Assembly (NCBI RefSeq): GCF_000227685.2
Contig: NZ_CP007029.1
Location: 62,001 to 126,000 of the forward strand
Reading direction: 5' to 3'
Length of the DNA: 64,000 bases
Source of the DNA: Thioalkalivibrio paradoxus ARh 1
GTDB taxonomy: Bacteria > Pseudomonadota > Gammaproteobacteria > Ectothiorhodospirales > Ectothiorhodospiraceae
Part shown: piece after piece, positions 8,122-53,188 of the stretch
Layout: the number at the start of each line of letters is the position of its first letter
How positions within the stretch are numbered: the first letter of the stretch is position 1
Program-made: the position numbers and the translations under genes
The notes under the pieces: generated by a model
Databases searched by the model: none
What the model was told of the DNA's origin: nothing
The model's input: only the letters and a program-made list of their open reading frames with translations

Positions 8122-8793
8122 GCATGGTTTGCCAGGGTTTTGGCTGTTTTTCGGGGCTTCCCGGCGGTTTCGCGGACCAGATTGGGCCAGAAAGTGACAA
8201 AAATGGGCACCCTGGGTGTGGGCGGTGCGCCTGCAGGGCGGCTGAGAAATGTATCTGTAGATATATGCGCGGCGGCCGCAGGCCAGGGGCGAGGGATCGG
8301 TCTGAGCTCGTGTGCGGGGGCGCATGGCGCCGTGGGTGCCGATGGAAACGGCGTTGGTGCCCCGGCTCAGGGCCCGAGCCTGCCGCTGGAGCGGGCGCGT
8401 GGTGCCATGGGTGCGCTGCTGGCGGGCTGGAGTCGCGGAACTGGAGCTGATCCGGTCGGGCAGGGCGGTCCGGGCGGTCTATAGCCGTGGATGGTGTGGG
8501 TGAGTCCCGCTTCCTGATGTTGCCTCCCTGCCGCGCCGTTGGATCGATCCACGCGCTTCGGGCCGTGCGTGGTTGCGCTGCCGATCCTGGTCCGGTCCAG
8601 GATGCCCACCATGCTTGCCGGCCCGCTTCGGGAGTTCCGCCTCGCCGGCTCTTCGGCCGCTTCAGGGATCGTGGCCGCCGTGCCATCATGAGCGGTCGGG
8701 TTTTCGAGCACGGCCTTGCGCTCGATGGCACCGAACGTGTTGCGGCGCCCGGGCCGACGCGTGGCCGTTGCTACCGCCATGGAGGAAATGAGC
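8122..8793. other. Intergenic between pilA and the first Uma2 gene, no gene recognised
   Basis: About 670 bases of very GC-rich sequence run between divergently transcribed genes. No open frame here has family motifs. The start of the Uma2 gene was placed at 8794, so the open frame extending to 8716 is treated as non-coding. PilR-type upstream activation sites would be expected within the first 200 bases but none was recognised. Confidence 0.5.
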
Positions 8794-9354
8794 ATGGCCG
8801 CCAGGCAAACCGACCAAGTTTCGGTGGAGGACTACCTCGCGAGCGAGCGCGACGGCGAGGTCCGGCATGAGTACGTGGCCGGCCAGGTCTATGCGATGAC
8901 CGGCGCGAGCCGAAGGCACGGGCTGATCGTCGGTGCCCTGGTCGCTGCCTTGCGACGGGGCGCAAGGCAGCGAAACTGCCAGTTGTTCACCAACGACATG
9001 AAGGTCTACGTCCACCACGCCGGCGACGACGCGTTCTACTACCCGGACCTTGTCCTCACCTGCGAAGCCGACGACCGCGAGGACTACTACCTGAAACACC
9101 CGTGCCTGATCGTCGAAGTGCTGTCCGAGGGTACCGAGCGCATCGACCGGCGCGAGAAGCTCCTCGCCTACACTGCCGGGCTGCCCAGCCTGCGCGAGTA
9201 CCTGCTGGTCGCCCAGGATCGCCGGCAGGTGGACGTTTACCGTCGCACGGAAAGCGACTGGGTGCACGAAACCTACACCGATGGCAGCTTCCAGCTCGAC
9301 TCTCTCGAGCAGGATCTGCGCCTCGAGAGCATCTACGAAGACGTTGACGCTTGA
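8794..9354 (+). CDS. Uma2 family (DUF820) putative restriction-endonuclease-fold protein
   Basis: The 186-aa product begins MAARQTDQVSVEDYLASE, the start pattern of Uma2/DUF820 proteins. It has the PD-(D/E)xK-type core: YYPDLVLTC (Asp), then LIVEVLSEGTERIDRREKL (E-V-L plus the downstream Lys). ATG 8794 is preferred because GGAGG lies 8 bases upstream; the ATG at 8788 is too close to that site. Uma2 proteins are very common, multicopy and of unclear role; nuclease activity has been proposed from the fold. A second copy follows 74 bases downstream, so this pair is a tandem duplication or two independent acquisitions. Confidence 0.88.
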   Translation: MAARQTDQVSVEDYLASERDGEVRHEYVAGQVYAMTGASRRHGLIVGALVAALRRGARQRNCQLFTNDMKVYVHHAGDDAFYYPDLVLTCEADDREDYYLKHPCLIVEVLSEGTERIDRREKLLAYTAGLPSLREYLLVAQDRRQVDVYRRTESDWVHETYTDGSFQLDSLEQDLRLESIYEDVDA

Positions 9355-12862: not shown

Positions 12863-13002
12863 ACCGACGCGGAGAGGTATCGCACTGGCTGAGGAGGTTT
12901 CGTGATAATCAGGACGTCGGTCGCAGCTGTCGCATGCGGCCGGGTGGCCGGAGTGATGGCCTGTGGTAGCATCGCGCGGTCTTGGCTAGGGAGGGAAAGG
13001 CT

Positions 13003-14010
13003 GTGAGGATTCTGGTCACCGGCACGGCCGGTTTCATAGGGAATGCGCTGGCGCTGCGCTTGCTGGAACGCGGCGACGAGGTGGTGGGTGTCGACAATCT
13101 GAACGACTACTACGACGTGAACCTGAAGAAGGCGCGGCTGGCGCGCGTTGCGGGGCATCCCGGGTTCACCGATCTGCGCATCGACCTCGCCGACCGCGAC
13201 GCGATCGCCAAGGCCTTCGCCGAGCACCGGCCGCAGCGGGTCGTGAACCTGGCCGCGCAGGCCGGTGTTCGCTACTCGCTGGAGAATCCGCATGCCTATG
13301 TGGACACCAACCTGGTCGGCTTCGTGAACCTGCTCGAGGGCTGCCGGCACAACGGCGTCGAGCACCTCGTGTTCGCGAGTTCCAGCTCGGTGTACGGGGC
13401 GAATACGAAACAGCCGTTCTCGGTGCACCACAACGTCGACCATCCGCTGAGCCTCTACGCCGCGAGCAAGAAGGCGAACGAGCTGATGGCGCATACCTAC
13501 GCCAATCTTTACGGCCTGCCGGTGACGGGCCTGCGCTTCTTCACGGTATACGGGCCCTGGGGCCGGCCGGACATGGCGCTGTTCCTGTTCACCAAGGCGA
13601 TCCTCGAGGGGCGGCCGATCGACGTGTTCAACTACGGGCATCATCGGCGCGATTTCACCTACATCGACGACATCGTCGAGGGCGTGATCCGAACGCTGGA
13701 CCACGTGGCCGAGCCGAACCCGGGCTGGGACAGCGATCGCCCCGATCCGGGGACCAGCCGGGCGCCGTACCGGCTGTACAACATCGGCAACCAGCAGCCG
13801 GTGGAGCTGATGCATTACATCGAGGTATTGGAGGACTGTCTGGGCCGCAAGGCCGAGAAGAACCTGCTGCCGCTGCAGGCCGGCGACGTCCCCGATACCT
13901 ACGCCGATGTCGAGGACCTGGTGCGCGACGTCGACTACCGGCCACAGACCCCGGTCGAGGAGGGGGTGGCGCGGTTTGTCAGCTGGTACCTCGAGTTTTA
14001 TTCGGTCTGA
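13003..14010 (+). CDS. NAD-dependent UDP-glucuronate 4-epimerase-like enzyme
   Basis: The 335-aa extended SDR has the NAD-binding GxxGxxG motif at residues 7-13 (GTAGFIG) and the catalytic Y152-xxx-K156 (YAASKKANE). [31 protein letters not shown] and [17 protein letters not shown] mark the CapI/LspL type that converts UDP-GlcA to UDP-GalA. GTG 13003 is preferred over a TTG at 12982 because GGGAGGGAAAGG precedes it. UDP-GlcA would come from the dehydrogenase encoded at 15288, so the two enzymes act in series for capsule, EPS or LPS precursors. Confidence 0.88.
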
Positions 14011-14284
14011 CCCGGCACTGCCGCCGGTGGCGTCCGGCGCACCACCCGCCGTCGAACGCCGATCGGCAACGCCTCGGAGGTTGTGCCGGTTGGCGCGATG
14101 CCTCCCAGGCACAGGCCTCCCCGGAGGGGCAGCGCTCATTGCGAGCAAACCGACCGGAGGTGGTTTGCCGGGTGCGGGCGCGGCGTACCTGTACCCATTG
14201 GGCTCGAGCCGGTTAGTGGGCACAATTCGTTCGGTTCGTTCGGCGGTGCCCCTGCTTGCGCTGGCCAGCAGCAGGCACGCCGAT
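14011..14284. other. Intergenic, no gene recognised
   Basis: About 270 bases between the epimerase and the rfaH promoter region. I see no gene, tRNA or strong terminator. It includes short inverted segments rich in CCTCC/GGAGG, without a clear role. Confidence 0.45.
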
Positions 14285-14293
14285 TGGTATGAT
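14285..14293 (+). promoter_or_regulatory. Candidate extended -10 promoter for rfaH
   Basis: TGGTATGAT is a TGn extended -10 element with a 5/6 match to TATAAT. No good -35 box is present at the usual spacing. Transcription from about 14300 would give an 80-base leader carrying the hairpin at 14325-14362. Confidence 0.4.
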
Positions 14294-14324
14294 GATGTTC
14301 GGGAGTGAAAGACTCCAGGGAGGC

Positions 14325-14362
14325 CGCGAATGTGTCGTCGACCACCGATCGACACATTCGCG
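14325..14362 (+). promoter_or_regulatory. Perfect 13-bp inverted repeat in the rfaH leader
   Basis: CGCGAATGTGTCG (14325-14337) and CGACACATTCGCG (14350-14362) are exact inverted repeats with a 12-base loop. The stem ends 8 bases before the GGAGGA ribosome binding site of the rfaH-like gene. It has no T-run, so it is not a classical terminator; it could be an operator, an mRNA-stabilising hairpin or a translation control element. Confidence 0.7.
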
Positions 14363-14380
14363 CGATGGAAGGAGGACGCC

Positions 14381-14869
14381 GTGAAGCATTGGTACGCCGT
14401 GCACTGCAAGCCCAACCAGGACGAGCGCGCCGAGGATCAGTTGCGCAACCAGGGGTTCGAGGTCTTCCGCCCGCGGATCCGCTGCCGGCGGCGCGCGCGG
14501 CAGCGCTATCGGGTGGTGATCGAGTCGATGTTCCCGCGCTACCTGTTCGTGGAACTCGACGACGCCAGCCAGGACTGGTCGCCGATCCGGTCTACCCGCG
14601 GGGTGACGGGCCTGGTACGGATGGGCGGGCAGATTCCGCACGTGCCGGATCCGGTGATCGATGCGCTGCGCCGGCGCGTCGATGCCGACGATTGCATCGA
14701 GATCACCCCGGAAGACGGTTTCCAGCCCAACCAGCCAGTACTGATCACCGAGGGCCCGCTGGCCGGGTTCCAGGCGCTGTTCAAAGCGCGCAATAGCCAG
14801 GAGCGGGTGGTGGTGCTGCTGAACCTGATGCAGGTGACGCTCCCGGTGCATGCGATCACGCGGGCCTGA
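14381..14869 (+). CDS. rfaH: RfaH-like transcription antitermination protein (NusG paralogue)
   Basis: The 162-aa length equals that of E. coli RfaH. The N-terminal NGN domain reads HWYAVHCKPNQDERAEDQL, FRPRIR, and FPRYLFVEL; GVTGLVRMGGQIPHVPD follows, and the C-terminal KOW-like part has FQPNQPVLITEGPLAGFQAL. RfaH binds paused RNA polymerase at ops sites and lets it read through long LPS, capsule and pilus operons. The start is GTG 14381 with GGAGGA 6 bases before it. Its place between sugar-nucleotide genes agrees with control of surface polysaccharide. I did not find an ops element in the window. Confidence 0.9.
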   Translation: MKHWYAVHCKPNQDERAEDQLRNQGFEVFRPRIRCRRRARQRYRVVIESMFPRYLFVELDDASQDWSPIRSTRGVTGLVRMGGQIPHVPDPVIDALRRRVDADDCIEITPEDGFQPNQPVLITEGPLAGFQALFKARNSQERVVVLLNLMQVTLPVHAITRA

Positions 14870-14880
14870 GGGTGGCACCG

Positions 14881-15052
14881 CGTCCCGGGTAACCCGTAGG
14901 GCGGAACAGCGCAGCGTCATCCGCCACACGGCGTACGCGCCGCCCCGGGTGCCTGCGGCCACCCTGGCGCCGGATGGCGGATGACGGCCTTCGGCCTTTT
15001 CCGCCCTACTTGTTTTTTATCATCGGGGGTGGCCGCCCCCGCCATGACAGTT
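14881..15052. repeat. Interspersed GTAGGGCGG palindromic element, copy 1
   Basis: The core runs from GTAGGGCGGAACAGCGCAGC (14896) to GGCCTTTTCCGCCCTAC (to 15009) with the internal pair GTCATCCGCC and GGCGGATGACG. It is followed by the conserved end CATCGGGGGTGGC...CATGACAG. The same plan recurs at 20703, 20908, 43578, 52869, 52990 and 56668. Confidence 0.8.
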
Positions 15053-15287
15053 CGGCAGGGGGAACGCGTACGTCGCTTCATGTCGTCTGGGGGCGCGCGA
15101 TCGCAGTCAATGTGAAAGAATCCGCGGCACGAGAGAGCGCGATGCCACTTCGGGCTGTCATGCGGATGGTGTAAGAGGAAGAGCTTTGTGCGGGCCAGCG
15201 TAGCAGGCTCGGCCGCTGTGTCTGTCTATAGGGTTTGGGCTGGCGATTCCACCGCCAGTTCCGTTGATCTCAATTGGGAACAGTGCA
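15053..15287. other. Leader region of ugd, no gene recognised
   Basis: The segment begins with a GTGAAAGAAtCCGCGGC stretch also found at the junction of the two tandem repeat copies near 20910, so it is a remnant of the same element. The rest must hold the ugd promoter; TCTATAGGGT at about 15226-15235 is AT-rich but not a convincing -10. Confidence 0.4.
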
Positions 15288-16622
15288 ATGAATCTGACCG
15301 TTATCGGAACCGGCTACGTCGGCCTCGTCACTGGTACCTGCTTTGCGGAGATGGGCCACCACGTGACCTGCGTGGACGTGGACCAGCGCAAGATCGATAA
15401 CCTGAACAAGGGGATTCTGCCGATCTACGAGCCGGGGCTCGACGCGATGGTCGAGCACAACGCGCGCGACGGGCGCCTTGCGTTCACCTCGTCGTTGCCG
15501 GAGGCGATGCGCAGTTCGGACGTCTATTTCATCGCGGTGGGTACGCCCCCTGGCGAGGACGGCTCGGCCGACCTCCAGTACGTGCTCGCCGTCGCGCGGG
15601 AGATCGGGGCCCATCTCGACCGCTATGCGCTGGTGGTCGACAAGTCGACCGTGCCGGTGGGCACCGCCGAGCAGGTGCGTGCCGCCATCGATTCCGAACT
15701 CGAGCACCGCAATGTGCGCGTAGACTTCGATGTGGTGTCGAACCCCGAATTCCTGAAGGAAGGCGCGGCGATCAACGACTTCATGAAGCCCGACCGGATC
15801 GTGGTCGGTGCCGAGAGCGAGCGCGCGATCGATCTGATGCGCGCACTGTACGCCGATTTCACCCGCAGCCACGACCGGCTGCTGGTGATGGGGGTGCGCG
15901 ACGCGGAAATGACCAAGTACGTCGCCAACGCGATGCTGGCCACCAAGATCTCCTTCATGAACGAAGTCGCGAACCTCTGCGACCGAATGGGCGTCGATGT
16001 CGAGAACGTCCGCACCGGCATCGGCTCCGATAGCCGCATCGGGTACTCGTTCATCTATCCCGGCTGCGGCTATGGGGGATCGTGCTTCCCCAAGGATGTG
16101 AAGGCGCTGATCCGGATGGCCGGGAATCACGATTTCGTGCCCGCGGTGCTCGAGGCGGTGGAGGCGCGCAACGAGCAGCAGAAGGGGTACTTGTTCGAGA
16201 AGATCCGCGCGCATTACGGGCCGGACCTATCGGGCCGCAGGTTCGCGCTGTGGGGGCTCGCCTTCAAGCCTGGCACCGATGACATGCGCGAGGCAGCGTC
16301 CAAGGTGTTGCTGCGTCAGCTGATCGACGCCGGCGCGAGCGTACGCGCCTATGACCCGATCGCGATGGACGTGGCCCGCGATGAACTGCCGGCGGAGTGG
16401 TTCGGCGACGGGCGCCTGACGCTGGTGGACAACCAGTACGATGCGCTGCGGGATGCCGATGCGCTCGCGCTGGTCACCGAATGGAAACCCTTCCGCCATC
16501 CGGATTTCGACGCGATGCGCCGCCTGATGCGCCCGGACCCCGCGATCTTCGACGGCCGTAACCAGTACCAGCCGGAGAACATGCAGAGCGACGGCTTCGT
16601 GTACTACGGGGTGGGCCGATAA
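15288..16622 (+). CDS. ugd: UDP-glucose 6-dehydrogenase
   Basis: The 444-aa product oxidises UDP-glucose to UDP-glucuronate with two NAD+. It has the N-terminal Rossmann motif [10 protein letters not shown], the family segment [11 protein letters not shown], the substrate-binding [12 protein letters not shown], and the catalytic Cys266 in [10 protein letters not shown]. The C-terminal UDP-binding domain has [16 protein letters not shown] 15288 (MNLTVIG) is used, with a weak GGGAAC upstream. Its product feeds the UDP-GlcA 4-epimerase at 13003. Confidence 0.95.
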
Positions 16623-20702: not shown

Positions 20703-20909
20703 GCGTGAAAGTCAGGGCCTGTCTCGTGTCCCGGGCGACCCGTAGGGCGGAAAAGCGCAGCGTCAGCCGTCGCTCGGCGTTCGGATCGCCCCGCGCGGCC
20801 TGCGGCAACGCCGGCGTGGGAATGGCGGATGACGGCCCTTGGCCTCTTCCGCCCTACGCCTACGCCTCTTTCATCCTCAGGGGTGGCTGCCCGCGCCATG
20901 ACAGTTAGC
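20703..20909. repeat. Interspersed GTAGGGCGG palindromic element, copy 2 (tandem with copy 3)
   Basis: A full copy: GCGTGAAAGTCA...GGCCTGTCTCGTGTCCC, the core GTAGGGCGGAAAAGCGCAGC...TTCCGCCCTAC, and the end GGGGTGGC...CATGACAGTTAGC. It overlaps the start of copy 3, so the two are in tandem in the same orientation. Confidence 0.82.
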
Positions 20910-21110
20910 GTGAAAGAACCCGCGGCGCGCGTCCGGGGTGACCTGTAGGGCGGAAAAGCGCAGCGTCATCCGCCGCTCGGCGTTCGCGCCTCCCCGGCGC
21001 TTGCGGCAACCCCGGCGCCAGCTGGCGGATGACGGCCTTCGGCCTTTTCCGCCCTACGGCTACGCCTCTTTCATCATCGGGGGTGGCCACATAGGCCATG
21101 GAAGTTTGCG
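20908..21110. repeat. Interspersed GTAGGGCGG palindromic element, copy 3
   Basis: It begins GCGTGAAAGAACC at the end of copy 2 and holds the full palindromic core with GTCATCCGCC and GGCGGATGACG arms, ending near GGGGTGGC...GGCCATGG. Its right end is less conserved than that of copy 2. Confidence 0.8.
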
Positions 21111-41527: not shown

Positions 41528-41615
41528 GCCGGAAGGACGCGAGGGCGAAGGCGAGCGCTTGGGCGTCGCCTTCGCCGACATGGCGGATGACGGCCTTCGG
41601 CCTTTTCCGCCCTAC
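41524..41615. repeat. Truncated GTAGGGCGG-type palindromic element
   Basis: The right arm GGCGGATGACGGCCTTCGGC through TTTTCCGCCCTAC (41582-41615) matches the other copies exactly. The left arm is degenerate (GTAGGCCGGAAGG at 41524). It begins within the stop region of the PPK2 gene. Confidence 0.6.
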
Positions 41616-43577: not shown

Positions 43578-43771
43578 CGTCACGGCGCGGGGGCGGCCAA
43601 CCCCGACCATGAAACATGCGTAGGGCGGAAGAGGCCGAAGGCCGTCATCCGCCAGCCGGCGCCGGGGTTGCCGCAGGCGCCGGGGAGGCGCGAACGCCGA
43701 GCGGCGGATGACGCTGCGCTCTTCCGCCCTACGGGTCGCCCGGGGCACGAGACAGGCCGTGACTTTCACGC
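43578..43771. repeat. Interspersed GTAGGGCGG palindromic element, copy inside the mrp operon
   Basis: A nearly full copy in the inverted orientation: CGTCACGGCGCGGG..., core GTAGGGCGGAAGAGGCCGAA to CTTCCGCCCTAC, and end GGCCGTGACTTTCACGC. It lies between the genes ending at 43874 and starting at 43468, inside an otherwise tightly packed operon. Confidence 0.82.
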
Positions 43772-52989: not shown

Positions 52990-53188
52990 CTGTCATGGCC
53001 AGCGGCCACCCCGAGGATGAGCGAGGCGTAGGCGTAGGGCGGAAAAGGCCGAAGGCCGTCATCCGCCAGCTGGCGCCCGGATTGCCGCGGGCGCCTGGGC
53101 ACTGCGAACGCCGTACGGCGGATGACGCTGCGCTTTTCCGCCCTACGGGTCGCCCGAAACACGAGATAGGCCGTGACTTTCACGCTAA
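52990..53188. repeat. Interspersed GTAGGGCGG palindromic element, full copy
   Basis: CTGTCATGGCCAGCGGCC... to GTAGGGCGGAAAAGGCCGAA, GTCATCCGCC, GGCGGATGACGCTGCGC, TTTTCCGCCCTAC and the end GGCCGTGACTTTCACGCTAA. It abuts the truncated copy at 52869, giving a second tandem arrangement in the window. Confidence 0.82.

Follow-up and report, generated by a model that had tools for sequence, protein, structure and literature searches.

A likely structure-conserved, lineage-specific 5′-UTR hairpin in front of an rfaH-like gene of Thioalkalivibrio paradoxus

RfaH-type proteins control long envelope operons, and a perfect inverted repeat lying directly in front of the start codon of an rfaH-like gene raises the question of whether it is a structure with a role in the expression of that gene and, if so, of which kind. 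The repeat lies within a window of 64,000 nucleotides (the whole stretch of DNA that was analysed), and the features surrounding it are collected in Table 1. The encoded protein scores 143.8 bits against the NCBIfam RfaH model (TIGR01955), which is just below the cut-off of 144.5, and the closest solved chain is that of E. coli RfaH. According to the part of PMC5995543 available to us, four residues of E. coli RfaH have side chains in contact with the ops element (K10, H20, R23 and R73); in the alignment to that protein K10 and R73 are kept, H20 is replaced by Q and R23 by N. The equivalents of E48, I93 and F130, which the accessible sections of PMC5995543 and PMC7593976 list as necessary for autoinhibition of RfaH, are all kept. 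Upstream, a gene of the sugar-nucleotide epimerase family (12982-14010, + strand) is separated from the rfaH-like gene by a gap of 370 nt, and downstream, all on the + strand, come genes for a nucleotide-sugar dehydrogenase (UDP-glucose-type), a phosphomannomutase/phosphoglucomutase and GMP-PMI. A consensus scan of 13900-15400 returned no promoter-like site (see Table 1 for a weak candidate). Directly behind the gene, at 14892-15013, there is an imperfect palindromic repeat of about 120 nt (GTAGGGCGGA...TCCGCCCTAC), with near-full-length copies at 20738-20857, 20941-21057, 43620-43736 and 53034-53150 and partial copies near 41573, 52910 and 56714, the copies being 82-95% identical. A literature search for Thioalkalivibrio together with RfaH found no paper, and how the level of an RfaH-like protein is set seems to be undescribed for the genus.

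Table 1 Features of the rfaH-like leader and gene (positions in the window; G010 is the congener used for comparison)
Feature	Position	Strand	Basis
Weak promoter-like TTGGGC-17-CACAAT (candidate)	14198..14226	+	By eye; kept in G010
Leader part unrelated in G010 (about 103 nt there vs 59)	14232..14290	+	Alignment with G010
Small 5-bp hairpin GGAGT-GAAAG-ACTCC	14302..14316	+	Folding; G010 comparison
Perfect stem-loop, 13 bp, loop 12 nt	14325..14362	+	Repeat search, folding, compensatory changes in G010
Linker with Shine-Dalgarno GGAGGA (14371-14376)	14363..14380	+	17/18 bases identical in G010
RfaH-like NusG paralogue, GTG start	14381..14869	+	Pfam NusG 3.9e-23; TIGR01955 RfaH

The geometry given in the original prediction, a perfect 13-bp inverted repeat with a 12-base loop ending eight bases before GGAGGA, was confirmed by a repeat search: the arms CGCGAATGTGTCG (14325-14337) and CGACACATTCGCG (14350-14362) are 100% complementary, with 13 of 13 positions paired, and the GTG start follows at 14381. 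Neither arm sequence was found a second time within the 64-kb window, and inside the loop (TCGACCACCGAT) three inner base pairs are predicted, leaving an apical loop of 5 nt. The accompanying claim was that a match of this kind is unlikely to form by chance at this place, and a 13-bp hairpin adjoining this start codon is less likely than one placed anywhere in the window. In the window as a whole, perfect hairpins with arms of at least 13 bp and loops of 3-20 nt had a mean of 0.2 per window in 20 first-order Markov simulations and 2 were observed, so that one such hairpin somewhere is not astonishing. The second one, at 8942-8973, has a loop of 6 nt and lies within a Uma2-family ORF (8716-9354); one of its pairs carries a one-sided change in G010. 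When folded, the leader piece 14298-14400 (103 nt) reaches -40.6 kcal/mol (z = -2.4), which one of 200 shuffles equalled, and for the 70 nt between -80 and -11 from the start the z-score is -3.9 in the window and -5.4 in the congener.

The comparison with this congener, the RfaH-like protein of which is 98% identical, is stronger evidence than the perfection of the inverted repeat. Its hairpin occupies the same position (-56 to -19 from the GTG) and has 14 pairs and a loop of 10 nt; where the window has a T.T beside the loop, the congener has a G-C. Three of the 13 pairs have changed on both sides (A-T to G-C, A-T to C-G and T-A to C-G), while none has changed on one side only and none is broken; 6 of the 26 stem bases thus differ and the palindrome is still perfect. 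By a simple count, the probability of six random changes on 26 sites restoring the pairing by chance is 4.6e-5. Compensatory changes of the kind that distinguish a conserved structured RNA are therefore present, in one relative, although they could represent few events, since the hairpin is carried by two genomes only. The hairpin is also more divergent than its surroundings (differences at 11 of its 38 bases and at 5 of the 72 flanking ones, 14291-14324 and 14363-14400, of which the last 20 are coding; Fisher P 0.003), and so it is not kept as sequence; it appears to be the structure that is kept. When the pairing partners were slid, no two-sided change was seen at any of six slides, and in a shuffle control, which is powerless with two rows, 53 of 500 shuffles reached the observed covariation. 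In the small hairpin further upstream, one T-A pair of the window is T-G in the congener. A coding reading of the stem, with an upstream in-frame ATG at 14330 as the start codon, was rejected because the loop of the congener holds an in-frame stop (TGA) and because the common segment of 14 aligned homologues begins at MKHWY.

Template switching between the two arms of a palindrome can copy a change across, giving paired changes without selection. The repeat could in that case be without function and owe its persistence to chance or to templated repair of the DNA (quasi-palindrome correction); both the higher divergence of the hairpin compared with its flanks and the adjoining block 14232-14290 would fit, as this block is unrelated in the congener. 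(It contains an imperfect hairpin, 14240-14283, in the window and sits between two blocks of 93-96% identity.) We nevertheless find this reading improbable, since the hairpin keeps exactly the same distance from the start codon and other hairpins of the region have mostly lost their perfection, though some are in coding sequence. Among control hairpins with arms of at least 9 bp, partly coding, those from positions 1-33000 of the window showed 17 one-sided and 2 two-sided changes (8 of 10 alignable, 2 not), and those from the congener's side 6 one-sided and no two-sided changes (4 of 7 alignable, 3 not).

A perfect dyad close to a start codon also suggests a DNA operator of a dimeric repressor, one of the roles first proposed for it, or an intrinsic terminator. 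The three symmetric base changes speak against the former, because a protein reading the sequence would not need changes that preserve the symmetry, and here the symmetry is fully kept. As for the latter, the consensus scan found no intrinsic terminator in 13900-15400, and the stem is followed by CGATGGAAGGAGG with no T-run, which speaks against an ordinary terminator. There is in addition no other convincing copy in the genome, and we consider an operator or terminator very improbable. A repeat or mobile element was rejected on the same ground, the next best matches in the own genome having E values of 1.95, 2.18 and 2.48; a plasmid search for the element (distant mode, E 1e-5) gave no match.

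How far the hairpin extends beyond these two genomes was examined at the level of protein, leader DNA and structure, with one genome per species. The closest named relatives of the protein are in Thioalkalivibrio, followed by other Ectothiorhodospiraceae and then by the wider Proteobacteria (80 of 189 loci kept). In a protein search of 58 genomes including the own one, 44 matched at E 0.001, many of the weak matches being probably the housekeeping NusG. Six further congeners have proteins 76-81% identical over nearly the whole length, and two more have partial matches; in the 76-81% relatives, the gene either lies close behind the epimerase stop or has a different leader. Among 30 genomes of the genus including the own, the leader DNA had a single strong match besides itself, that of G010 (4e-30). 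Of 47 genomes of the order, three matched a covariance model built from the two leaders at E 0.01, namely the two it was built from and a third (G022; E 0.006, positions 1501-1568 of its locus). The third match is taken for chance, since it skips both hairpins, aligns flanking sequence only and runs antisense to the beginning of an ORF that looks unrelated. In an even sample of 369 genomes of the class, from which G010 is perhaps absent, the model matched the own genome only. Neither the 47 nor the 369 genomes thus show the element across several lineages; it was found in two species.

Folding gave a similar picture, as in 33 further homologous leaders, taken from the 80 loci and mostly the closest, no fold had z below -2.5, the lowest being -2.06, and a widely kept leader structure was rejected for this reason. 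Perfect arms of at least 10 bp occur in 6 of 81 leaders (79 of the 80 loci, without the truncated L077, plus the own and that of G010, with starts approximated from the protein match). Of 810 pieces of 120 nt drawn at random from these sequences, 5 had such arms, but the pieces are mostly coding and therefore an unfair control for intergenic DNA. The rfaH-like leaders of L056, L059, L075 and L100 contain perfect hairpins of 10, 15, 12 and 17 bp, respectively, at 67-110 nt upstream of the approximate start; their sequences differ from that of the present hairpin, and in none is the stem followed by a T-run. The original prediction had been made to depend on whether close relatives conserve the stem. 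It is kept, with covariation, in G010 and was not seen in the other homologous leaders examined. As far as the present evidence goes, the hairpin is local to two species that are closely related, and judged from the compared sequences it is likely to be a structure-conserved, lineage-specific hairpin of the 5′ UTR.

The base of the stem is 19 nt from the start codon, at about the limit of the region that an initiating 30S subunit covers. We tentatively favour, at a little under an even chance, the view that the untranslated 5′ RNA of the rfaH-like gene carries a stem-loop whose shape, and not its sequence, is kept. It would set rfaH translation as an insulating part of the leader that folds on its own: with its arms paired to each other, a GC-rich stretch would be taken out of play, and the Shine-Dalgarno linker would be left open. 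The cost of opening the stretch from Shine-Dalgarno to start was computed by folding with 60 nt of coding sequence, using 50 shuffles of the hairpin letters for comparison. In the window the native leader costs 5.6-5.8 kcal/mol, against a mean of 7.8 (sd 2.0) with a shuffled hairpin, and in G010 2.0 kcal/mol, against 4.8-5.2 (sd 1.8-2.1); the gain from the native hairpin amounts to about 1-1.5 standard deviations only. When the hairpin region was forbidden to pair, the cost was little altered (6.0-6.1 in the window and 2.4-2.5 kcal/mol in G010), so that the computation points to insulation by the hairpin and not to activation. The predicted mean chance of the Shine-Dalgarno being unpaired in the window is just 0.63-0.69. 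Insulation is the most likely role under this folding model, in which the effect on opening of the ribosome site is a predicted one; transcription of the hairpin, and a raising or steadying effect on translation, are inferred. The empty promoter scan and the absence of such a hairpin from homologous genes elsewhere count against this explanation. The location of the repeat would suit the translational switch put forward earlier, but the stem does not include the Shine-Dalgarno.

A free sequence with a kept shape would equally suit a role in mRNA stability or processing, by which the stem would protect the rfaH message, or one processed from the transcript of the upstream epimerase gene (12982-14010), against decay; the 370-nt gap behind that gene counts in favour as well. 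The exact spacing between stem and start would however be unnecessary, and a stem of such length is short for RNase III; we take this role to be rather unlikely.

The linker and its surroundings also contain the type of site recognised by CsrA/RsmA. In this scheme, CsrA would bind single-stranded A(N)GGA sites on either side of the stem; with the stem placing the upstream one beside the ribosome site, a single dimer would bridge the two and block translation. GGA cores are found at 14319, upstream of the stem, and at 14367, 14371 and 14374 around the Shine-Dalgarno, and all four are kept in G010 although the intervening stem has changed. With four cores in each of the two leaders, as counted here, the leader has the features that the available part of Kulkarni et al. 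2014 (PMC4066749) gives as common to CsrA targets: a site at the Shine-Dalgarno, at least three sites in all, and a spacing of less than 60 nt in at least two pairs of them. Both genomes contain CsrA homologues, three in the own and two in G010; on contig C1 of the own genome (G000) they lie near 334034, 1988728 and 1989248, two of them within about 700 bases of each other on opposite strands. Among the 24 other rfaH-like leaders counted, the highest number is three cores, reached by one of them. Against this, the Shine-Dalgarno linker by itself accounts for three of the four cores, which are too close for simultaneous occupancy, and without the linker the number of cores is at chance level (1 seen, against 0.84 and 0.75 expected). 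Of the shuffles, 4-5% attain the full count, and when the window is tiled into 1421 pieces of 90 nt, 31 of them contain at least four cores. A CsrA switch of this kind is therefore improbable in our estimation. The wider proposal, that a sequence-free stem joins two invariant single-stranded sites at which an RNA-binding regulator (a CsrA-like or the RfaH-like protein) would set RfaH output, and so exopolysaccharide expression, is unlikely as well; from the sequence, a protein switch at the hairpin (CsrA, or RfaH itself) is a possible one.

The remaining alternative is that of an elongation signal, in which the RfaH-like protein would act on the leader of its own gene, with the hairpin as the pause or recruitment structure. 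The gene order is in its favour, since an RfaH-like protein followed by nucleotide-sugar genes is a setting reported for many RfaH clusters (PMC7593976, as far as available), and there is a precedent in UpxY, which acts in the leader upstream of upxY (PMC7819879, in the sections accessible). However, no ops-like GGCGGTAGCGT with at most two mismatches overlaps the hairpin (the window holds 40, against 35.6 expected), the UNCG loop of the LoaP hairpin and a terminator behind the stem are both absent, no convincing second copy of the element exists in the genome, and two of the four residues that contact ops in E. coli are altered. An elongation signal thus seems rather unlikely here. Of the earlier suggestion of an autoregulatory RNA bound by an RfaH/NusG-like protein, the RNA structure is borne out by the compensatory changes, and the binding of RfaH is not, given the lack of ops, of UNCG and of a second copy.

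Compared with known systems, UpxY and LoaP would be precedents for NusG paralogues acting on leaders, but the feature matching either of them is absent here. The leader resembles those of UpxY in the capsule operons of Bacteroides in lying just upstream of the start of a NusG paralogue gene that is itself near sugar genes; it differs in that, in what could be consulted of PMC7819879, premature termination in the leader is relieved, whereas no terminator was found here, and in that the protein scores 76.6 against a UpxY cut-off of 100. With the dfn leader of LoaP it shares an RNA hairpin connected with a NusG paralogue; that hairpin, as described in the available text of PMC12691694, is small, has a UNCG loop, is followed by an intrinsic terminator and is found in two target operons, whereas the present one has a 13-bp stem and a 12-nt loop, is single-copy and has no terminator. 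The relation to E. coli RfaH and ops is one of protein family (phmmer 1.6e-22), while ops itself, a short sequence of which the non-template DNA forms a hairpin of one to two pairs (PMC5995543, in part), is absent at the hairpin. Unlike structured stem-loops at ribosome sites in general, the hairpin matches no Rfam 15 family (seven weak matches in 13900-15400, all under the gathering scores and none on the hairpin) and was found in two species only. It is nevertheless these 5′-UTR stem-loops that it resembles in position, in its self-contained fold and in its covariation, and as a leader hairpin with compensatory changes it provides a concrete, testable handle on how the RfaH-like level is set in the genus.
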